A DNA stretch of 64,000 bases from Leptolyngbya sp. FACHB-261 (GCF_014696065.1 NZ_JACJPL010000001.1:1-64000); one strand, 5' to 3'; numbered from the stretch's first letter, positions 19,970-42,947 are shown. Made by a program: numbers and translations. Notes: a model not told the origin generated them from the letters alone.

Positions 19970-20087
19970 GCACTGAGGCTAGGCACTAGCCGTGAGAAAG
20001 ATTGACTGCCTTGAAAAGCGATGTTACTCTGCAAAGTGAAAATTAAGTCGGCCTAATTCGGGGTTCTTGACAAAAGGTATCGGTACC

Positions 20088-20235
20088 AAAAGGAACTCGG
20101 AAGCGGAGGAACCAAATTGTGGGGCTTATCTCTAACCTCCTTCACCAGAAGCGAGGATAAACACGAGAGGGACATCTCTCAGTCCTAGCCCGTCAGCTAA
20201 CTCCGTCGGCGTTGGGAGGAGACTGAAGAGTCAAA
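20088..20235 (+). promoter_or_regulatory. c-di-AMP riboswitch (ydaO/yuaA leader)
   Basis: The leader carries the conserved blocks of the ydaO/yuaA class in the expected order: GGAGGAACC (ending at 20113), a TGTGGGGCTTATC block, a variable arm, then CCCGTCAGCTAAC (20189-20201) followed at once by a CCGTCGGCG block and GGGAGGAGACTGAAG. The class senses cyclic di-AMP and usually turns expression off when bound. The permease start is about 80 nt downstream. No strong U-tract terminator is obvious between them. A CCTA/TAGG pairing (20290-20293 with 20301-20304) overlaps the ribosome binding site and could be a translational expression platform. Recognition is by motif; a covariance search was not possible. 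Confidence 0.82.
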
Positions 20236-33617: not shown

Positions 33618-33649
33618 GCACCCTGATCTAACGGTGTAAATCAGGGTGC
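33618..33649. other. perfect 10-bp stem-loop after Uma2
   Basis: GCACCCTGAT pairs perfectly with ATCAGGGTGC around a 12-nt loop. It lies about 60 bp after the Uma2 stop and could terminate transcription or protect the 3' end, but no T-run follows. Confidence 0.5.
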
Positions 33650-33787
33650 CTGCGTCTTCACAACCCTACTCGGAGATCCCGTGAGGCTGCTGCATCTGAT
33701 TTGTTAGCCTAAAAATGAACTTCATAGTGGCGCCTCCTCACAGAAGCCTGTTATAACTGGGAGAACGTACTCAGGGCTACCTCACTC

Positions 33788-34147
33788 ATGCTGGAAACTG
33801 AACTAGCTGTGGCGACGGTCAAGATTGTACTAGATGTTCTAGACAAAGTCACAGGGGGAGCTTTAGAGGAAGTTGGCACACAACTCCTCCAATATTTGAA
33901 AACCAAACTTCAAGGAACCTTGAAGCTAGATAAGGTCAGAGAAGATCCAGCACTACTAAGAGCAACCGTTTTAGACAGAGCCTTAGAAGACAAAAGATTT
34001 AAAAGTGATCTGGAACAGCTCGTATTAAAATTTCAAAAACTAGAAAGCAATACCGCAAAAACTATTCAGAATAATCAGTCTGGAGTTAACATCAATGCTG
34101 AAAACAGCAATGTTGTAGGACAACAGTTTTTTCGTAACCAACAATAA
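33788..34147 (+). CDS. N-terminal part of an apparently frameshifted effector-like protein
   Basis: 119 residues: an N-terminal helical domain (LAVATVKIVLDVLDKV, LLQYLKTKLQGTLKLD, LVLKFQKLESNT) followed by the Asn/Gln-rich NNQSGVNINAENSNVVGQQFF. Such short helical domains ending in an NNxxGxN...VVGQ motif are common in front of effector or membrane modules in cyanobacterial NLR-like proteins. The frame ends at 34147, but a T6 run at 34127-34132 would, with one T fewer, join it to the frame running on to 35513. I think the two parts belong to one gene, about 575 residues long when joined. Start: ATG at 33788. Confidence 0.6.
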   Translation: MLETELAVATVKIVLDVLDKVTGGALEEVGTQLLQYLKTKLQGTLKLDKVREDPALLRATVLDRALEDKRFKSDLEQLVLKFQKLESNTAKTIQNNQSGVNINAENSNVVGQQFFRNQQ

Positions 34148-34313
34148 CTACCACACTCTGCGCAATGAAGATTTAGAACCTCTTAGTTTAGCGGGCAAAC
34201 TTCTTAGCTACTTCAAGGTTCTAATCTTTTTAATATCAGCACTTACTTTCTGGTTCCTCTTTGGCTGGTTTGCCGATTACTCATTTCCTTACGGTGAAGC
34301 AATTCAACTGATT

Positions 34314-35513
34314 TTGTGTTGCTTTAAAGGAACTGTTGCAGCCAGAGTCAATAGTCTACAGAAACAACTACAGGACGCCGAACTCCTATTAAAGGCAAAG
34401 AATTCAAAACAGCAAGTAGAAAGGTTAAATAATCTTGATTCCAAAGCATGGTTGTATTTGGAGATTTTGGGGGGTCTAGGCAATCAAAAGGCTACTAGTC
34501 ATGAGCGGATTGCAAAGACAATAGAAGCTTTGAGGCAAAAAAGGCTTGACATCAAAGATGAGTTAGAACCACGAAAACCAGAAAAATATCGTACATTAGA
34601 GAAATTACAGACTAAAGCAAAGGAGTTCTTTGCATTTCTACCTTTGCTGCAAGCTCAGAGGGATTTTGAACGAATTGAGAAAATCTTAAGCGAATTGATT
34701 TTGTATACCAAGAGTGGCCAGCCTTCAGAGACAATCATTGAAAATATGCTTGAAGAATTATCCTTTAAAGTCGCCAGGAACTCTAATAAAATTAGTCCTA
34801 CTAGGCTAAGTCTCGTCTATAGAATTCAGGAATTGCTGTATTCGATATCTCAAAAAGAAGTTTCCAATCTTAGCAAGTCTGAGTTGAACAAGCTTAATGA
34901 AGATATACTCAATGAAATAATATCTCAAAGAGACATTTTATCTAAGGAATTCAATAAATTATTAAGAGAGAAGCATGCAAAACAACAAGAGTTAGAAGAA
35001 TACTCTGAAAACCTAAAAGGATTGAATCAAGCCATTGCTGAACTCGAAGCAGAGATACTAGAGCTTCGTGAAGGAATCAAACAACGTGCCCAATCAGATC
35101 GAGTTAAACAAGGTCAAATCAATAGTCTAAATAGCAGCTTGAATGAGTCAAATAGAAAATTACTTGAATTGCAGGACCAGAAGAAATCTTGGATTAATAA
35201 AGAGAACAACTTGCTTCAGAAGATTGATCAGCAGAACAATGAAATCTCCCAACTGACTAGTCAACTTAAAAAGTATTCTCGAATAAGAGTCCTAGAAGGG
35301 GAATATATTGGAAATTTAAGCAACAAAAATAGCAAATATCACTTCAATGGAAGATGTCCAGATTGGAAGATGCTGGTGGGGGAGTATGTATTGAAGCTAG
35401 ATGATTCACGAGAAATCCTAAGCAGTAGTAACCCTACTATTTTCTTGAGAGAAGGGCTAGGAGAATGCGAAGTATGCTCAGGAAAAAGAAACTCGAGAAG
35501 ACGAATACCATGA
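34314..35513 (+). CDS. coiled-coil membrane protein with C-terminal zinc-ribbon-like domain (frame open from 34119)
   Basis: The first standard start codon is a TTG at 34314, giving 399 residues, but the same frame is open back to 34119. The extra part encodes a transmembrane helix (FKVLIFLISALTFWFLFGWF) that clearly belongs to the protein, so the true N-terminus is probably the gene at 33788 read through a +1 shift at T6. After the membrane helix come about 300 residues of charged coiled coil. The last 70 residues, GEYIGNLSNKNSKYHFNGRC ... GECEVCSGKR, resemble the Ada-type metal-binding module seen at the ends of nuclease and competence proteins. Function unknown; A/T-rich codons suggest acquired DNA. 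Confidence 0.65.
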   Translation: MCCFKGTVAARVNSLQKQLQDAELLLKAKNSKQQVERLNNLDSKAWLYLEILGGLGNQKATSHERIAKTIEALRQKRLDIKDELEPRKPEKYRTLEKLQTKAKEFFAFLPLLQAQRDFERIEKILSELILYTKSGQPSETIIENMLEELSFKVARNSNKISPTRLSLVYRIQELLYSISQKEVSNLSKSELNKLNEDILNEIISQRDILSKEFNKLLREKHAKQQELEEYSENLKGLNQAIAELEAEILELREGIKQRAQSDRVKQGQINSLNSSLNESNRKLLELQDQKKSWINKENNLLQKIDQQNNEISQLTSQLKKYSRIRVLEGEYIGNLSNKNSKYHFNGRCPDWKMLVGEYVLKLDDSREILSSSNPTIFLREGLGECEVCSGKRNSRRRIP

Positions 35514-35616: not shown

Positions 35617-35719
35617 GGCTAACGGCACAGTTAAGCGGTAGCAGATAACCTTGAACTAAATATCAAGACCTGTCAGATGTCCCCTCTAGCGAGTTTATGG
35701 GCAGACAGAACTGTTAGGC
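35617..35719 (-). repeat. attC-like integron recombination site C (degenerate)
   Basis: On the minus strand the site starts with GCCTAAC (R'') and ends with CCGCTTAACTGTGCCGTTAGCC-type sequence (L' plus R' GTTAGCC), 103 bp overall. The R boxes match the attC consensus; the right arm is close to the classic form, while the left L box pairs only partly. It lies 94 bp after the stop of the minus-strand ORF ending at 35813, the position expected for its cassette attC. A palindromic AGCTAGGTAGGC/GCCCACCTAGCT stem (35755-35782) lies between them. Confidence 0.55.
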
Positions 35720-35812
35720 TGCGACTAGCGCATTGAAGCAAAAGCCTAAATTTTAGCTAGGTGGGCAATGCCTACCTAGCTATTCAAAAGCAGAACAAGT
35801 TATTCGAAATAT

Positions 35813-36100
35813 TTAGTCAAGAACAGGTGAGAGTTGTCCCTCGTCGGTACAAAGGCAGTAATGAACACTTACTGTAACTTCCCTGTCTCCTTGTGGAACA
35901 CGGCATGTACCTGTATTGAAGCCATCAATCTGATACCCAGGACGATTGCCTTCTCCACCAGAACAAACCATGTATGGATTTCCATTCCCGGACCAAGTGC
36001 CTATTTGCACAGGCTTGAGAGGCGGAAGACCGGAACGCGACTTTCTGTAAGTTTCTGTACATCCATCACCCGGTGCAGCTTTAATCCAGTAAGTTGCCAT
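35813..36100 (-). CDS. cassette-encoded ORFan, Cys/Gly-rich
   Basis: 95 residues with a GGAG ribosome binding site six bases before the ATG (ATGGCAACTTACTGG...). The protein is rich in Gly, Pro and Cys (five Cys: GDGCTETY, MVCSGGEG, GTCRVPQG, YCLCTDEG), aromatic and without helices obvious by eye, suggesting a small beta-rich, possibly metal- or disulfide-stabilised fold. No signal peptide. It matches no family I know. Its setting between attC-like sites suggests a gene cassette. Confidence 0.55.
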   Translation of the reverse strand: MATYWIKAAPGDGCTETYRKSRSGLPPLKPVQIGTWSGNGNPYMVCSGGEGNRPGYQIDGFNTGTCRVPQGDREVTVSVHYCLCTDEGQLSPVLD

Positions 36101-36161
36101 GTTTAGCTCCGTATCATAAATTTGTGAACTCGAAGTCTAGCTTGACGCTAAACACTTGTAG

Positions 36162-36225
36162 ACACGATCCATAACGCCACCAAATGAGACAGCAACATTG
36201 CAGCCGCTTAGGATTGGCGTCACCC
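36162..36225 (-). repeat. possible decayed attC-like hairpin
   Basis: Just after the ORF ending at 36250, TGACGCCA pairs with TGGCGTTA around AATCCTAAGCGGCTGC...CATTTGG. It has an AAGCGG L-type core and ends GTTATGG, which only loosely fits an R' box, and no R'' box is found. It could be a decayed attC or an unrelated hairpin. Confidence 0.25.
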
Positions 36226-36249
36226 ACCTTAACATCAACCAAGAATAAA

Positions 36250-36555
36250 TCACGAATAATTTAGTGATCCAGACCACGGCAAATTGCCATTATAGTCTGC
36301 CGCTACGTGTATTCCCTCTACAGTGCTTCCAGTATCAGAGATGACCCCGTGATAGAAAATCTTTGCACCGTTTGATGCTTTGGTTCTCTCAACAAACATT
36401 CTGTTTTCGGTAAAAACAATTAACATGTCATCGCCATAGTAATGCTCCCACCTTTGCTCATCTTGCCCTATGCTATTGTCGCTTCGAGTCCAAGTACCTC
36501 TATGGACCGCACCTTCTACAGTTTGAATGTTTGTACAAGTTCTCGGATCTGTCAT
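36250..36555 (-). CDS. cassette-encoded ORFan, lipocalin-like strand pattern
   Basis: 101 residues from the ATG at 36555, which has an excellent GGAGG ribosome binding site six bases upstream. An in-frame ATG at 36609, 14 bp inside the cassette boundary, lacks one. The sequence (VEGAVHRGTWTRSDN, QRWEHYYGDDMLIVFTENRMF, VERTKASNGAKIFYHGVI) alternates short strands and turns, consistent with a small beta-barrel, but I know no family. No signal peptide or membrane segment. Confidence 0.55.
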   Translation of the reverse strand: MTDPRTCTNIQTVEGAVHRGTWTRSDNSIGQDEQRWEHYYGDDMLIVFTENRMFVERTKASNGAKIFYHGVISDTGSTVEGIHVAADYNGNLPWSGSLNYS

Positions 36556-36622
36556 TTTGCCTCCAAACGGACAATAGTTTTTAGGTGAATAGTACTGGCT
36601 CAAAGACATTGAAGTATAATCA

Positions 36623-36709
36623 GGCTAACAACTGCGTTTAGCGGATGCAAGTAACATTAAACTAATCATTAAAAATTTTCTTCATTCCGCTGCAACGCAC
36701 TTGTTAGGC
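36623..36709 (-). repeat. attC integron recombination site A
   Basis: Best of the three sites. On the minus strand the left arm is GCCTAACAAGTGCGTTGCAG plus CGGA; the right arm is TCCGCTAAACGCAGTTG plus TTAGCC. Folded, the arms match in about 20 of 23 positions with one extra unpaired base, just as attC sites fold on the bottom strand: R'' GCCTAAC, L'' TGCAGCGGA, a variable A/T-rich terminal loop, L' TCCGCTAAA and R' GTTAGCC. Total 87 bp. The next cassette ORF begins just downstream. Confidence 0.75.
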
Positions 36710-36884
36710 TTCTAGTATAAGAACCAGATTCAGCCTTCTTTATCAAGATAATTCTATATTGTTCTTCCACCACTCTTCGTCTGGATACTAGTACAAAACT
36801 GACAACATATAGAGTAGCTCTTATCTCGTCTAGCCAATAGTAGACTTGCCGTCCCTGGACGTAAAAACTTATAAAACTACACAA
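36669..36884 (-). CDS. doubtful small ORF overlapping attC site A
   Basis: 71 codons from a TTG at 36884, with no ribosome binding site. The reading SFYVQGRQVYYWLDEIRATL, then ...RRRVVEEQYRIILIKKAES, is protein-like, and its last 14 codons run into attC A, as cassette genes often do. The lack of an ATG and SD keeps this low. Confidence 0.3.
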   Translation of the reverse strand: MCSFISFYVQGRQVYYWLDEIRATLYVVSFVLVSRRRVVEEQYRIILIKKAESGSYTRSLTSALQRNEENF

Positions 36885-36902
36885 CTTTTACATATAGGTT
36901 AG

Positions 36903-36949
36903 CCTTCTGTTCCTGTAGTGCTACAACACCGCACTACAGGAACAGAAGG
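36903..36949 (-). other. perfect 19-bp stem-loop after cassette ORF
   Basis: CCTTCTGTTCCTGTAGTGC pairs without mismatch with GCACTACAGGAACAGAAGG around a 9-nt loop, starting 12 bp after the stop codon at 36962 on the minus strand. A GTTAGCC heptamer overlaps its far edge (36898-36904). No T-run follows, so it may be a 3'-end stabilising hairpin or an unusual recombination site rather than a simple terminator. Confidence 0.7.
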
Positions 36950-36961
36950 AAACTTCTTCAA

Positions 36962-37375
36962 TCAATCCAACATAGTCGCAGTTGCAACAGCGTTCCCAAA
37001 AACTTGATGTCCAGAGTCGTCAAACCCAACGACAGTAGATCGACCATCCGAGCTTTCATCCCGAACTTTCATTGGACTCTGAACCCAAGGCTTTGTGCCA
37101 TTGGGTGGAGACTCCTTGTGATACCCCACGATGGCTAGATATGCATCTTGTCCCGCATTGTTATTATCGGAAACCCAGTCAATGGTATCGAGGTAGTTTC
37201 CTTTCTTCACCAAAATATTGCCTGTGTCTACAGAGCAAATCCATATCTGATGTTCGTACCACGCCGCGAAACTGAACCGAAACAACATACGTTTTGATGG
37301 AGGAACTTTAAGGCGATGAGTCCATCCTTGTTGGGGAATAATCCCGTCAGGACCAATATTCAAACTTTCAGACAT
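36962..37375 (-). CDS. cassette-encoded ORFan, beta-rich
   Basis: 137 residues with GGAG eight bases before the ATG. MSESLNIGPDGIIPQQGWTH begins a protein with strand-rich segments (MLFRFSFAAWYEHQIWICSV, YLAIVGYHKESPPNGTKPW) and a C-terminal GFDDSGHQVFGNAVATAT. No signal peptide, membrane helix or known motif. Its leader carries two copies of the 40-bp-period palindrome (37444-37507). Confidence 0.55.
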   Translation of the reverse strand: MSESLNIGPDGIIPQQGWTHRLKVPPSKRMLFRFSFAAWYEHQIWICSVDTGNILVKKGNYLDTIDWVSDNNNAGQDAYLAIVGYHKESPPNGTKPWVQSPMKVRDESSDGRSTVVGFDDSGHQVFGNAVATATMLD

Positions 37376-37443
37376 CTTTTAATCTCCTGGCAGTACTTGT
37401 AACAGGCATTAGAGTAGTGAGATTCGTGGAAGCTTAACTATTA

Positions 37444-37507
37444 TTAGGCAGAATCATTCTGTCTAAAATCCCATAGAGGACGGATAGGCAGAACGATTCG
37501 GCATAAC
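37444..37507. repeat. two copies of a palindromic repeat, 40-bp period
   Basis: TTAGGCAGAATCATTCTGTC (37444) and ATAGGCAGAACGATTCGGCA (37484) are imperfect 24-bp palindromes whose starts are exactly 40 bp apart. The same family recurs four times at 38329-38472. On the minus strand both clusters are followed by TAATAATAGTTA. Confidence 0.7.
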
Positions 37508-37544
37508 ACCTGAAATTGAATTCACCCTAACCTTCACAGATTTG

Positions 37545-37643
37545 CTTTGCCATCCGTGCAAAGTCAGCAAAAGGTCAGAGAAAAGTCAGATACACTCATT
37601 ACAATCCTGCTTGAATCACTGCCTTAACCAGGAACCTTAAACA
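37545..37643 (-). promoter_or_regulatory. repeated cassette leader A1
   Basis: Directly beside attC B. On the minus strand it runs from the R' box into GTGTATCTGACTTTTCTC, then TGACCTTTTGCTGACTTTGC, giving three short CTGACYTTT direct repeats, and ends in GGCAAAGCA. A close copy is at 38222-38316 and a partial one at 38572-38620. The role is unknown; it may be a promoter or a recombination-associated leader. Confidence 0.5.
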
Positions 37644-37728
37644 GGCTAACGTTCCTAGTCAGCGGTTGCCAATACCTTTGCAACACTACAAGTGGCTTCG
37701 GTCAATCCGCTGCACCCGAATGTTAGGC
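37644..37728 (-). repeat. attC integron recombination site B
   Basis: 85 bp. On the minus strand: R'' GCCTAAC, L'' TGCAGCGGATTG, terminal loop, L' CAACCGCTG, R' GTTAGCC. The arms pair at both ends with an unpaired central stretch of about five bases, as in attC sites. It shares the L'' core TGCAGCGGA with site A. It lies 70 bp after the stop of the ORF at 37798-38124, in the correct orientation to be its cassette site. Confidence 0.7.
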
Positions 37729-37797
37729 GGTCGCTAATGATAACTGTGCCCTTAGCCTAGGAGATCACTATTGATTGACAGTCAATCATAGCTTGCC

Positions 37798-38124
37798 TTA
37801 GATTCCATAATAAGCACATGCGACCTCTTCGCCAGCAACGTATACACACAAATTGACGCCTACTGGGACTCTCCACTTTCTCTTGACACTTACGCACGCC
37901 CTGGCCGCTTCACCATTGGGAACCCAGTCAGGAAGGTCAATACACTTCTTTCCAAGGTCCAAAGGAAGCTCTAGACATACCTTATTATCTTTAACAGTCA
38001 CTGAAACGCAATCGGCTAATATGTAGCTTTCTGGTGCAGTTTCCTGAGAGCTAATTGAATCTGCAATAGCTTTTACCTGATCGGCGGTAAAGGTGTCTTG
38101 AAGCTTTGGAAATAATTCAGACAT
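37798..38124 (-). CDS. cassette-encoded ORFan
   Basis: 108 residues from the ATG at 38124 with GGAG nine bases upstream; a longer frame from 38217 is not supported. The N-terminal SELFPKLQDTFTADQVKAIADSI pattern and DCVSVTVKDNKVCLELPLDL suggest a helix followed by strands; four or more Cys are present. The start is reminiscent of leader regions of nitrile-hydratase-like natural-product precursors, but that resemblance is weak. No known family. The attC B site follows. Confidence 0.6.
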   Translation of the reverse strand: MSELFPKLQDTFTADQVKAIADSISSQETAPESYILADCVSVTVKDNKVCLELPLDLGKKCIDLPDWVPNGEAARACVSVKRKWRVPVGVNLCVYVAGEEVACAYYGI

Positions 38125-38221
38125 TTGTAACGACTCCAAAAATAAAATGAAGGGCTGACCGCACTTAGCGCACCAACTCAATTGTGTCCATAAGACTGAA
38201 CCCACTCTAAGCTCCACACAC

Positions 38222-38323
38222 CTGCTTTGTCAGTAGTGGAAAGTTAGGAAAAGGTCAGGGAAAAGTTAGATACACCCACACATGCTTTGAAGAACCGCCT
38301 CAATCGAGGTTGAGTAGGCTAAC
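38222..38323 (-). promoter_or_regulatory. repeated cassette leader A2 with an R'-type half site
   Basis: Begins (minus strand) at GTTAGCC (38317-38323), the R' heptamer, and continues as a diverged copy of leader A1: GGGTGTATCTAACTTTTC, CCTGACCTTTTCC, then TGACAAAGCAGG. No complete attC is found on its other side; instead the 40-bp-period palindromes abut it. Confidence 0.5.
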
Positions 38324-38328
38324 TATTA

Positions 38329-38472
38329 TTAGGCTGAAACTTTCTGTAGAACACTCCAAAACAGATGGATAGGCAGACAGTTTCTGCATAAAGCCCCAAA
38401 TCGGGTCAATAGACAGAATCTTTCAGCAGAACGCGCTCAGTCTAGGTAACAGGCAGAACTCTCGACATATTT
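38329..38472. repeat. four copies of a palindromic repeat, exact 40-bp period
   Basis: Starts at 38329, 38369, 38409 and 38449: TTAGGCTGAAACTTTCTGTA, ATAGGCAGACAGTTTCTGCA, ATAGACAGAATCTTTCAGCA, ACAGGCAGAACTCTCGACAT. Each is an imperfect 24-bp palindrome followed by a 16-bp spacer. The period is not a multiple of three, so it is not a coding repeat. Confidence 0.75.
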
Positions 38473-38484
38473 GCAGACTTAATT

Positions 38485-38502
38485 ACGGTTGCTAGCAACC
38501 GT
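38485..38502. other. 18-bp perfect palindrome followed by a second small hairpin
   Basis: ACGGTTGCTAGCAACCGT is its own reverse complement, and it is followed at once by GTACCATTCGGTAC. Such a dyad could be an operator or a protein-binding site. It lies at the edge of the repeat cluster. Confidence 0.55.
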
Positions 38503-39323
38503 ACCATTCGGTACCTGCCTCACTAATCAACTGCGAGCTATCTCGCATAAGACATTGATAAGCTCTCGCCGCCTGCTTTGCCAGTAGGAAAAAGTCATGA
38601 AAAGGTATGTTCCCTTTAAAGGAATCATGAAGACTGGGGGGGGAAGTGGGAGAAGGTTGGTAAAAAGTGGGGTATGCTTCGGGAGCAGACACACTGACTT
38701 AGTTGTGTCAACAGTGAGAGGGTGCTGAGCGATACATATTGATGTTTGGCTAATTACTTCTGTGGTTCGTTTGATATGACGATCAAAGAATCTCTTCGGT
38801 TTGTGAAAGCTGATGTGGCTCTGAGTAGTGAGCTGTGTCTTAGCTTGGGTTTAATTCATGGCAGGCACAGTAGTCCCAAAAGTTGCACCACAACAATTGG
38901 TACGGATTCAAGCATTAACTCCTGCGACCTCTCATCTAGGTTGCCGATTGCAGACGTGAGTTCTGTACGGTGGGCAACATCAGAACATGTCACCGCACAA
39001 ACTGATGCAGCTGAGCCTAGAAAAGAATCTTGACACTAAGCAGAATCAAGCCTTGCAGAAAACTGCAAGCATAAAAGATTGATGGCCGATATTATGTACC
39101 TAGCCTTTTAGATAGAGGCAGGGCGTAAATCAGCTAGGGATAAATAGGGGAAAGACTGGGTGAGTTCACGACCAAGCCCGTGAACAGGTCACCAATCAAA
39201 TCTCAGGGTGTACTGCGATACAAGGCAGAGAATCCAGGAACACAAGCCTCTTTGCTGAAGCGTTTGTTGTCCCTCGTGACGACCGCCTAGCCATACTGAT
39301 GACCTTCATAGATTTCGCCGTCC
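38503..39323. other. gene-poor stretch before the NB-ARC gene
   Basis: About 820 bp. 38572-38620 is a partial third copy of the cassette leader (CTGCTTTGCCAGTAGG, AAAGTCATGAAAAGG). An eight-G run lies near 38636. Plus frame 38746-39033 and minus frame 38492-38692 lack ribosome binding sites or family-like sequence, so I do not call them. The last 200 bp probably contains the promoter of the NB-ARC gene. Confidence 0.4.
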
Positions 39324-42300
39324 ATGACAACTGAAGAAGCCCTCAAGATCGTAGATTCTGCGCTTGGCAAGAAGCGATTGAATCGAGTCCAGGAATTGGT
39401 GTTTAAGCATGCTTGGGAAGGGCAAGCTTATTCCGAGATCGCAGCCAGCTCTAGTTACGATATTCACTACATCAAAGAAGTCGGCTCCAATTTGTGGAAG
39501 CTGCTTTCGGAGGCTTTGGGAGAGAAAGTTACCAAGCATAATCTCCAGGCGGTTCTGAGGCAATACGCAGCGAGTCAGGCTGAGCGAATTCTCTCTGTAC
39601 AGACTGCCACTCACTCCACTACACAGGCCGCTAGTCCCAGCACTCCAGTTGCTTACACTCCCAGGCCAGCCCTCAGCCGAAAATGCCAAGACTGGGGAGA
39701 AGCCATTGATGTTTCAGTGTTCTACAGCCGCACTCAAGAACTGACTACTCTGGAGCGATGGCTGATTCAAGATCGCTGTCGCCTAGTGACAGTGCTGGGC
39801 ATGGGAGGCATTGGGAAAACGGCCCTGGCAGCAAAGCTAGCCGAGCGAGTTCAGGATGAGTTTGAGTATCTGATTTGGCGCTCTCTGCGCAATGCTCCCT
39901 CGATTCAAGAGATGCTGGCAGATTTGATCAAATTTCTGTCACTGCAGCAGGCTATTGAACCGCCTGAAAGCGTTGACGGCAAAATCTTGCAATTGATGGG
40001 CTATTTGCGCAAGCACCGCTGTCTTTTGATTCTCGATAATGCCGAGACTATTCTGTGCAGCGGTGAGCGCACTGGGCGCTATCGAGAAGGCTATGAAGGC
40101 TATGGGCAACTGCTCCGCTGTCTTGCTGAAACTCAGCACCAAAGTTGCCTGTTATTAACTAGTCGAGAAAAGCCTAAAGGATTAGCAGCCAGAGAAGGCG
40201 AAACGCTGCCAGCTCGTTCTCTGAAACTGACCGGGTTAAGCGAAGTAGCAGGCCAACAATTGTTTAAAGCCAAAGGAGAATTTTCGGGCTCTGCAAAAGA
40301 TTGGCAGACTTTGATTGAGCACTATGCAGGCAATCCCCTAGCATTGAAGATTGTTGCGACCAATATTCAGGAGATGTTTGATGGGGATGTATCGCAGTTT
40401 CTAGCGCAGGGCACCACTGTTTTCGGTGACGTTTGGGAGCTATTAGACCAACAATTTGAACGGCTCTCGGCATTAGAACAACAGGCCATGTATTGGCTAG
40501 CAATTAATCGGGAGCCAGTTTCTCCTTCAGACTTGCGCAACGATTTAGCAACGCTGCCAAGTCAGCGCGAGCTGTTTGAAGTGCTGGAGTCTTTGCAACA
40601 GCGCTCGTTAATCGAAAAAGCTGCGGCCAGTTTCACGCAACAGCCTGCGGTGATGGAATACATGACCGAACGGTTGAGCCGTGAGGTTAGTGAAGAAGTG
40701 ATCCGAGGTTCGCCGTCACTCCTAACCCGTTGTGCTCTGATTAAAGCTCAGGCCAAGGACTATATCCGAGAGACGCAAATCCGCCTCATCCTCAAACCCG
40801 TTCAAGACAGGCTTCTAGCTGCACTGAAGAACCGGCAGAAGGTTGAGGAGCAACTCACTCGGATTCTGAATAATCTACGCGGTCAGCCGAAACAGCAAAC
40901 TGGTTATGCTGCGGGTAATGTTCTGAATTTGCTTTGGCAACTGCAGAGCGATCTCAGCGGTTGGGATTTCTGTAATCTGAGCGTTTGGCAGGCTTATTTA
41001 CCGCATGCGGCTTTGCGTGGTGTTAGCTTTGCTCACGCCGATCTTAAAAGCTCAGTGTTCGCAGAAACTTTCGGTGGTGTTGTCTCGGTTGCGTTTAGTC
41101 CCGATGGGCAACTACTCGCCAGCAGCGATACCAGCGGTGAGATTCATATTTGGCAGGCTAGTAACGGTCAGCAACTCGTTGCTTGCAAAGGGCATTCTCA
41201 CTGGGCCTGGGCCATTGCCTTTAGCCCCGATGGGCAATGGCTAGCAAGCGCAGCAGATGATTACTCCGTCAAATTGTGGGATGTCAGAACAGGGGAGTGC
41301 TTACGAACTTACGAGGGACACACTTACTCGGTTAATACAATTGTCTTTAGTCCAGACGGCCAAATGCTGGCAAGTAGCAGCCAGGATGCAACCATTCGCT
41401 TGTGGAATGTTAGCGCGGCTGAACCTGCTTGTATTCGTACTTTGCAAGGACATGAGGGTCGAGTTTGGTCACTTGCGTTTAGCCCCGATGGTCGAACTTT
41501 AGCCAGTGGATCTGAAGATCTAACTATTAAGCTCTGGGATATTGCAACTGGTGATTGCTGCCAAACTTGGGAAGGACATAGCAAGTGGGTTCGTTCAGTT
41601 GCCTTTAGCCCCGATGGACAACGGCTGGTCAGTGGCAGCTATGACTGTACGGTGAAGCTTTGGCAGGTTAATAGTGGCGAATGTCGCCAAACCTGGCAGG
41701 GACATAGCAATGCAGTCACCAGTGTTGCCTTTAACCCCGTTGGCGATTGGGTCACAAGCAGCAGCTTCGATCAAACGCTGCGCGTATGGGACCTGCAAAC
41801 GGGTCAGTGCTTCCGAACCTTGCAAGGACATAGCAATCGTATTTGGTCGGTTGCAGTTAGTCCCAATGGACAGCAGTTAGCCAGCGGCGGTGATGATCAT
41901 GCAGTCAAATTGTGGGATATCCGAACAGGACAATGTACCAAAACCCTGAAAGGCCACACGAATTCAGTATTGTCGATTGCCTTGCATGCCGAGGGTCAAA
42001 CTCTGGCGAGTGGGCATGAAGATCAGACGGTTCGATTATGGGATACCGAAACCGGCGAGTGCTTACGAACCCTATACGGGCATACCAATCGGGTTTGGGC
42101 TGTAGCCTTTGCGCCGCAATCTGAAATGATCGCCAGCGGCAGCGCCGATCGCACAATCAAACTGTGGAATTGGCAAACAGGCGAATGCCTTAAAACGCTG
42201 CGGGGCCACAACAGTTGGGTTTGGGCAATCGCGTTCAGTCCTGATGGCCGACATTTGGCCAGTGGCAGCTATGACCACACGATTAAGCTTTGGGATGTGG

Positions 42301-42947
42301 AAAGCGGCGAGTATCTGCAAACCTATGAGGGACATAGTAGTTCAGTCGTCACAGTTGCGTTTAGTGCCGATGGTCAACAGTTGGTCAGTGGTAGTTTTGA
42401 CCAGATGATTAAGCTTTGGGATTTGGGTACAGGTGATTGTATTCAAACCCTAAAAGGACATACCAATAGTGTTTGGTCAGTCGTTTTTCATGCCAATGGT
42501 CAACAGTTAATCACTGGCAGTCTTGACCACACGATCAAGCTTTGGGATCTGCGCACTGGGCAATGCATTCAAACCTTGCAAGGGCATACAGCACCCGTGA
42601 TGGCCGTTGCCTGTAGCCCCGATGGTGAGCAGTTAGTTAGCGGTGGTTTTGACCAAAAGCTCAAGTTTTGGGATTTGCGCACGGGTGAATGTACAAAAAC
42701 ACTGCACGGGCATACCGGTTTAATCTCAGCACTCCGCTTCAAACCGGCCTGTGCTCAAAGTGAGGAAGCTCCCATTTTGCTCAGCGGTAGCTTTGATCAG
42801 ACCATTCGGTTCTGGGACATTAAAACTGGAGAATGCCTGCAAGCGCTAAGAGCACCTAGACCTTATGAGGGTATGAATATTACTGGTGTAACCGGCTTAA
42901 CCGAAGCGCAAAAAGTCACACTGATTGCCTTGGGAGCAGTGGAGTAG
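39324..42947 (+). CDS. NB-ARC protein with vMAP-like N-terminus and 14 WD40 repeats
   Basis: A 1,207-residue STAND/NLR-like ATPase. Residues 1-82 (LNRVQELVFKHAWEGQAYSEIA) are the winged-helix-like vWA-MoxR-associated N-terminal domain. The NB-ARC domain has Walker A GMGGIGKT at 159-166, Walker B CLLILDNAE and a GNPLALK-type motif. A helical segment leads to WD40 repeats from about residue 585. Fourteen blades can be counted (VWSVAFSPDG...LASGS.D.TIKLWD.. .TGECLKTLQGHT), enough for two seven-bladed propellers, plus a short conserved tail (GVTGLTEAQKVTLIALGAVE). Such proteins are thought to oligomerise on sensing a ligand through the propellers; the effector and ligand are unknown. Confidence 0.93.
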   Translation: MTTEEALKIVDSALGKKRLNRVQELVFKHAWEGQAYSEIAASSSYDIHYIKEVGSNLWKLLSEALGEKVTKHNLQAVLRQYAASQAERILSVQTATHSTTQAASPSTPVAYTPRPALSRKCQDWGEAIDVSVFYSRTQELTTLERWLIQDRCRLVTVLGMGGIGKTALAAKLAERVQDEFEYLIWRSLRNAPSIQEMLADLIKFLSLQQAIEPPESVDGKILQLMGYLRKHRCLLILDNAETILCSGERTGRYREGYEGYGQLLRCLAETQHQSCLLLTSREKPKGLAAREGETLPARSLKLTGLSEVAGQQLFKAKGEFSGSAKDWQTLIEHYAGNPLALKIVATNIQEMFDGDVSQFLAQGTTVFGDVWELLDQQFERLSALEQQAMYWLAINREPVSPSDLRNDLATLPSQRELFEVLESLQQRSLIEKAAASFTQQPAVMEYMTERLSREVSEEVIRGSPSLLTRCALIKAQAKDYIRETQIRLILKPVQDRLLAALKNRQKVEEQLTRILNNLRGQPKQQTGYAAGNVLNLLWQLQSDLSGWDFCNLSVWQAYLPHAALRGVSFAHADLKSSVFAETFGGVVSVAFSPDGQLLASSDTSGEIHIWQASNGQQLVACKGHSHWAWAIAFSPDGQWLASAADDYSVKLWDVRTGECLRTYEGHTYSVNTIVFSPDGQMLASSSQDATIRLWNVSAAEPACIRTLQGHEGRVWSLAFSPDGRTLASGSEDLTIKLWDIATGDCCQTWEGHSKWVRSVAFSPDGQRLVSGSYDCTVKLWQVNSGECRQTWQGHSNAVTSVAFNPVGDWVTSSSFDQTLRVWDLQTGQCFRTLQGHSNRIWSVAVSPNGQQLASGGDDHAVKLWDIRTGQCTKTLKGHTNSVLSIALHAEGQTLASGHEDQTVRLWDTETGECLRTLYGHTNRVWAVAFAPQSEMIASGSADRTIKLWNWQTGECLKTLRGHNSWVWAIAFSPDGRHLASGSYDHTIKLWDVESGEYLQTYEGHSSSVVTVAFSADGQQLVSGSFDQMIKLWDLGTGDCIQTLKGHTNSVWSVVFHANGQQLITGSLDHTIKLWDLRTGQCIQTLQGHTAPVMAVACSPDGEQLVSGGFDQKLKFWDLRTGECTKTLHGHTGLISALRFKPACAQSEEAPILLSGSFDQTIRFWDIKTGECLQALRAPRPYEGMNITGVTGLTEAQKVTLIALGAVE

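Follow-up and report, generated by a model that had tools for sequence, protein, structure and literature searches.

The array described here, on the minus strand of a window of 64,000 nucleotides from Leptolyngbya sp. FACHB-261 (the whole stretch of DNA that was analysed; NZ_JACJPL010000001.1:1-64000), is probably an integron that lost its integrase and kept its capture site, and whose platform units were later multiplied via IntI. The window contains attC sites and an attI, and these stand in the canonical relative orientation (Table 1). We file the feature as an attI-headed, integrase-less integron, a CALIN by its attC sites and new by its attI and its multiplication. In the textbook picture there is one integrase, one attI and one array, and CALINs are loose attC debris.

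Table 1. Features of the array; positions are counted from the first nucleotide of the window.
Feature	Position	Strand	Evidence
attI	38317-38480	+	leave-out HMM E=1.4e-34; model R2 80.6 bits; upstream of intact intI in relatives
Expected intI position, no demonstrable relic	38481-39320	+	frameshift-tolerant alignment; nhmmer
Cassette 1 ORF, 108 aa from ATG 38124, ORFan	37798-38124	-	own genome only among 390
attC B	37644-37728	-	R3 69.1 bits, E=2.6e-14
Short stretch between attC B and partial attI, leader and 11-bp repeats	37519-37643	-	position; weak leader score
Second attI, partial, with the core and two repeats (the first two)	37433-37518	+	leave-out HMM E=4.7e-16; R2 52.7 bits
Cassette 2 ORF, 137 aa, ORFan	36962-37375	-	own genome only among 390
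attC A	36623-36709	-	R3 82.4 bits, E=1.6e-17; fold z=-5.5
Cassette 3 ORF a, 119 aa, no known family	36250-36609	-	no plasmid match
Cassette 3 ORF b, 95 aa, no known family	35813-36100	-	no plasmid match
attC C, weak, decayed	35617-35702	-	R3 23 bits, E=0.003; fold z=+0.8
Candidate attC D, weak	33626-33709	-	R3 27.6 bits, E=2.5e-4; fold z=-1.8

The sites A and B were detected by the covariance model R3, both on the minus strand. An earlier attC covariance model, R1, had the window sites in its training set, and R3 was therefore built from 18 sites outside the window, 10 from the own genome and 8 from other cyanobacteria (L120 and L121 among them). The two sites have the identical sequence TGCAGCGGA in common, as the preliminary description had noticed, and in both the R''/R' and L''/L' arms pair, with an extrahelical base on the L'' side, a 2-versus-1 asymmetry at L'' and unpaired central spacers. 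The attC hairpin proposed for site A was also found, with -19.0 kcal/mol on the minus strand (z=-5.5), and the hairpin of B is weaker, -14.0 kcal/mol (z=-1.8). The stems of the R3 alignment covary, with 38 compensatory cells as compared to 13.4 in shuffles, and in a larger alignment of 91 sites, which leans toward structure, there are 231 such cells against 88 expected. From the R3 matches, the folds and the compensatory changes in the stems, it is clear that A and B are true attC sites.

The heptamer GCCTAAC is seen 7 times in the window and expected 7.08 times, which is the chance level. This would suit an explanation of the sites as heptamers that arose by chance, or as conserved repeats of an ordinary kind in the spacers of normal genes. 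Bare heptamers at this frequency prove nothing by themselves, the structure does. Against such an explanation stand the R3 E-values of 1e-17 and 1e-14, the covariation, and the ORFan genes that are not conserved in other genomes, and its probability is negligible.

Three attC sites on the same strand had been proposed, and the lack of any attC model match among them would have spoken against the proposal. R3 matches all of them, A and B strongly, but site C is weak; its right half matches the family, the arms no longer pair and the hairpin is lost. C is a genuine but weak and decayed attC. It had been drawn too long, to 35719, with its R'' misplaced. Including the weak candidate D, the window thus has the cluster of at least two attC sites that defines a CALIN. 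A scan of the window against Rfam at the gathering thresholds gave no integron match, and the sole match was a c-di-AMP riboswitch (RF00379) at 20074-20226 on the plus strand, 55.3 bits.

The array starts exactly at the R' box of the attI, GGCTAAC at 38317-38323 (GTTAGCC on the minus strand), which is not the end of an attC, and the cassettes lie to the left of it on the minus strand. The preliminary description had overlooked this attI, the key element. It consists of an inverted R/L pair as the core and of dyad repeats that follow at a spacing of about 45 nt. The partial attI sits within the array, between attC B and the cassette 2 ORF. An attI HMM built without either window copy finds the same element just upstream of intact intI at nine loci of other cyanobacteria. 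The element hence behaves as an attI should, with its R' box at a cassette boundary and, in complete integrons, a place adjacent to and divergent from intI. The short stretch 37519-37643 may be a much-deleted platform unit, to judge from its position and a weak leader score.

There is no intI on contig C1, and no demonstrable relic at 38480-39320, where a frameshift-tolerant alignment was not above shuffles and nhmmer gave no match. An apparent resemblance to the C-terminal part of intI near 38985-39126 was discarded, as it was not above shuffles and was absent from the nhmmer results. The lack of a nearby intI could also be explained by a plain CALIN, formed when an IntI elsewhere inserted cassettes off target at genomic attG sites, and both attG insertion and such an origin of CALINs have been described (PMC8618304, PMC12444791). 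Off-target insertion would not create a bona fide attI, and this array begins at one, which makes that origin highly improbable. The first label of the feature, CALIN-like, therefore fits the attC cluster without intI, but not an array that still begins at attI.

None of the four cassette ORFs matched a Pfam or NCBIfam family, in agreement with the first impression that they belong to no recognised family. It had been pointed out that the same genes, if conserved in synteny across many strains, would be ordinary genes; the ORFs of cassettes 1 and 2, the two tested, are absent from the 389 other cyanobacterial genomes searched (390 including the own). The cassette 2 ORF had no relative in the named-genome contigs searched, and the two ORFs of cassette 3 no match among plasmids. 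Each site had been described as lying shortly downstream of an ORF, which holds for B, 70 nt from the ORF end, but less so for A (253 nt) and C (about 110 nt). By analogy with most cassettes, these ORFs are expected to be accessory genes. The attC matches, the ORFans and the missing intact intI together agree with the suggestion of a formerly mobile ORFan cassette array without a visible integrase.

The same elements recur through the own genome, and the counts of attC and attI copies, which come from the models, are rough. For the whole genome, model R1 gave 57 attC at E<=0.001, and 78 when the limit was relaxed to E<=1; within the regions extracted there were 87 at E<=0.05, in 33 groups if gaps exceeding 4 kb are taken as borders. 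About 26 copies of attI were found, and 21 of these 26 are accompanied on the cassette side by an attC no more than 5 kb away, in the canonical orientation in all 21 cases and in the opposite in none. A look for intI elsewhere in the genome, as had been proposed, gave fragments only, mostly from the first 100 codons and all below the TIGR02249 cut-off, so that the intact intI of a complete integron is absent from the genome as assembled. The assembly is a draft of 36 contigs, 97.66% complete, and an intact intI may be missing from it. The earlier CALIN label did not extend to these roughly 26 attI copies, the some 30 further attC groups and the several intI fragments.

Several attI copies have in common the same internal intI deletion and the sequence beyond it, while the sequences beyond the attI R' box diverge between copies. 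Segment X, which lies at the far, 3', end of the intI relics, is present in 17 copies in the own genome. Reading the flanks by eye, we counted 14 of the 17 as beginning at the end of an attC, whether whole or a remnant, and for 12 of these 14 the R' box at that point is intact; the R' box is damaged before X at C13:143591 and C26:205473. The attC sites preceding X are 58.6% alike, as compared to 56.8% for random attC pairs, and between the copies of X the likeness over the first 70 nt is 79%, which means that the conservation switches at the recombination point. At these other loci of the own genome both ends of the unit lie at R' boxes in most copies and the flanks are unrelated between copies, as in an attI-type cassette. 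In mobile integrons, IntI1 can both excise and insert cassettes of the form attC-ORF-deltaattI (PMC12901181). It appears that the integron platform itself moved like a cassette, and the simplest reading would be that [X-(deleted) intI-attI] was inserted by IntI like a cassette whose site is attI. The relatives searched gave no match to segment X, also not as the 3' flank of intI, so the mobility of the platform rests on one genome.

Internally deleted derivatives in many copies look MITE-like, and it is conceivable that a transposase spread the attI-bearing units, which would then lie beside attC by coincidence. The units have the attI R' box at one end and, in most copies, adjoin an attC R' box at the other, and their orientation to attC is always canonical, which makes a transposase improbable.

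If the array is an integron that lost its integrase, it would read, in cassette direction along the minus strand, from attI (38480-38317) into cassette 1, ending in attC B, then through the partial attI and cassette 2, ending in attC A, and into cassette 3, which carries two ORFs and ends in the decayed attC C; a further cassette possibly reaches 33626. An IntI acting at the window attI would have inserted the ORFan cassettes by the recombination of attI with folded attC that is usual for integrons, and intI would have been deleted after that. The platform would then have multiplied in the lineage to about 26 attI copies, in that an intact IntI, acting in trans, once mobilised [X-(deleted) intI-attI] units as cassettes of the attI type, and this movement in trans may have produced the many satellite arrays headed by attI. 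Now that no intact intI is left, the array should be static, unless an integrase enters the cell.

The attC family of the window is present in 31 of 39 genomes, the own included, and several small-genome species among the 39 had no attC at E<=0.001. Among 390 cyanobacterial genomes the attI family was found in 183 and a near-complete intI in 124; both were found in 92 (Fisher p=1e-13 for the association) and attI without a near-complete intI in 91. Each genome contributed at most nine scored candidates to the survey, some of which may be echoes from the reverse strand, and its copy numbers are rough; in part of the 91 attI-only genomes the missing intI may be an assembly gap. Four finished genomes (G023, G018, G024, G021) have scattered attI copies near attC, and several of these attI adjoin short intI starts or ends. 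In G033, G006 and G015 orphan attI head canonical attC arrays and intact intI is found elsewhere in the same genomes, and in many genomes orphan attI and intact IntI occur together. Three near-identical (about 95%) intact intI-attI platforms were seen in G006 (L110, L111, L112), with 3' flanks common to all and cassette-side flanks common to two.

It is possible, and we say so tentatively, that Cyanobacteria have a distributed integron, in which one or a few intact IntI act in trans on many satellite arrays headed by attI, and in which an intI-attI platform, its far end conserved, spreads in the manner of an attI-type cassette and leaves multi-copy deleted derivatives. Each attI-headed locus could instead have been a complete integron, from segmental duplication or separate arrival, that decayed by deletion of intI, with no unit moved in trans. 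The intI fragments beside attI differ in length in several genomes, and the flank common to two of the G006 platforms is as in segmental duplication, both of which favour separate decay. Against it, several copies have the same internal intI deletion, and the attC sites that X adjoins at the R' point are diverse, which argues that already-deleted units moved, and we consider separate decay rather unlikely.

The own and many other cyanobacterial genomes have from several to dozens of capture sites without an integrase, and this suggests a far wider scattering and multiplication of cyanobacterial integrons than in the picture of one integrase and one site. The repeat-rich attI family reveals that cyanobacterial arrays without an integrase have kept capture sites, and often there are several of these in one genome. 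Should orphan attI function in trans, one would have to rethink how many insertion points there are, how cassettes are expressed and how CALINs arise. The attI model is also a means to annotate loci that attC-only searches would label as CALIN.

Integrons in Cyanobacteria have been reported before (PMC2426708, PMC8618304, PMC9668308), and a cyanobacterial attC model is already published (PMC8352920). CALINs are common, have been proposed to be degraded integrons, and consist, like the window array, of attC sites and small unknown genes without intI (PMC9024848); they are defined by attC alone, whereas the window array has an attI at its head. The sedentary chromosomal integron of Nodosilinea sp. 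FACHB-131 (L121), with the complete order of attC, attI and intI, has the same 87-nt attC family, attI family, order and orientation, but its intI is intact and the window has none. The deltaattI-type cassettes of class 1 and 2 integrons (PMC12901181) are likewise units that have an attI at one end and either attC or attI at the opposite end, and IntI1 mobilises them; they carry a resistance gene and a truncated attI, whereas the units here have a deleted integrase gene and their own attI, are chromosomal, and would have been mobile by inference. The scattered CALINs of Xanthomonas are also attC clusters away from the main integron; seven different loci of this kind, adjacent to conserved genes, are reported across species, and the sections consulted do not mention multiplied attI, whereas here about 33 attC groups lie in one genome (PMC12444791). 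In the main text of the open-access papers searched, we found nothing on orphan or multiplied attI in cyanobacteria, and both a multi-copy attI family heading integrase-less arrays and a platform that behaves as a cassette appear to be undescribed.

Beside the orphan attI of several families, no more of intI is retained than about its first 50-60 codons (L207, L209, L213, L200 and many fragments). In class 1 integrons the Pc promoter reads into the cassettes, and by analogy the retained intI starts may have persisted because they hold a promoter reading into the cassettes. Weak matches to the attI model were also seen directly upstream of intI in Acidobacteria (L151:5871-5952) and Anaerolineales (L122:5873-5956), and by these matches the repeat-rich attI type may extend beyond Cyanobacteria.

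A diverged but conserved cassette leader (about TGCTTNAGTTNTNGGTGAGGACAGTANTTTGAAGCTTATCTGTT) occupies the first 60-70 nt directly after the attC R' box in roughly a quarter of the own-genome cassettes, and also in L219, L224, L106 and L221. In cross-validation it was found in 10-16 of 61 other cassettes and in 1 of 68 controls, and a profile made from the own genome alone matched 9 of 38 cassettes in other families. Direct repeats of 11 bp (on the minus strand about CTGACTTTTCC) form three tracts in the window, at 37552-37598, 38231-38280 and 38559-38606, adjoining both attI elements and occupying the leader of cassette 1; their spacing presumably resembles that of Pho-box-like operators. Between candidate attC D and attC C there are two plus-strand ORFs (33788-35513), of 119 aa and of 399 aa, the latter coiled-coil-like, which run opposite to the other cassette genes and could form a single antisense cassette if attC D is real. 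Directly beyond the attI side of the array, at 39324-42947 on the plus strand, lies the gene of a 1207-aa protein, which by eye we take to be an NB-ARC-type ATPase with WD40 repeats.
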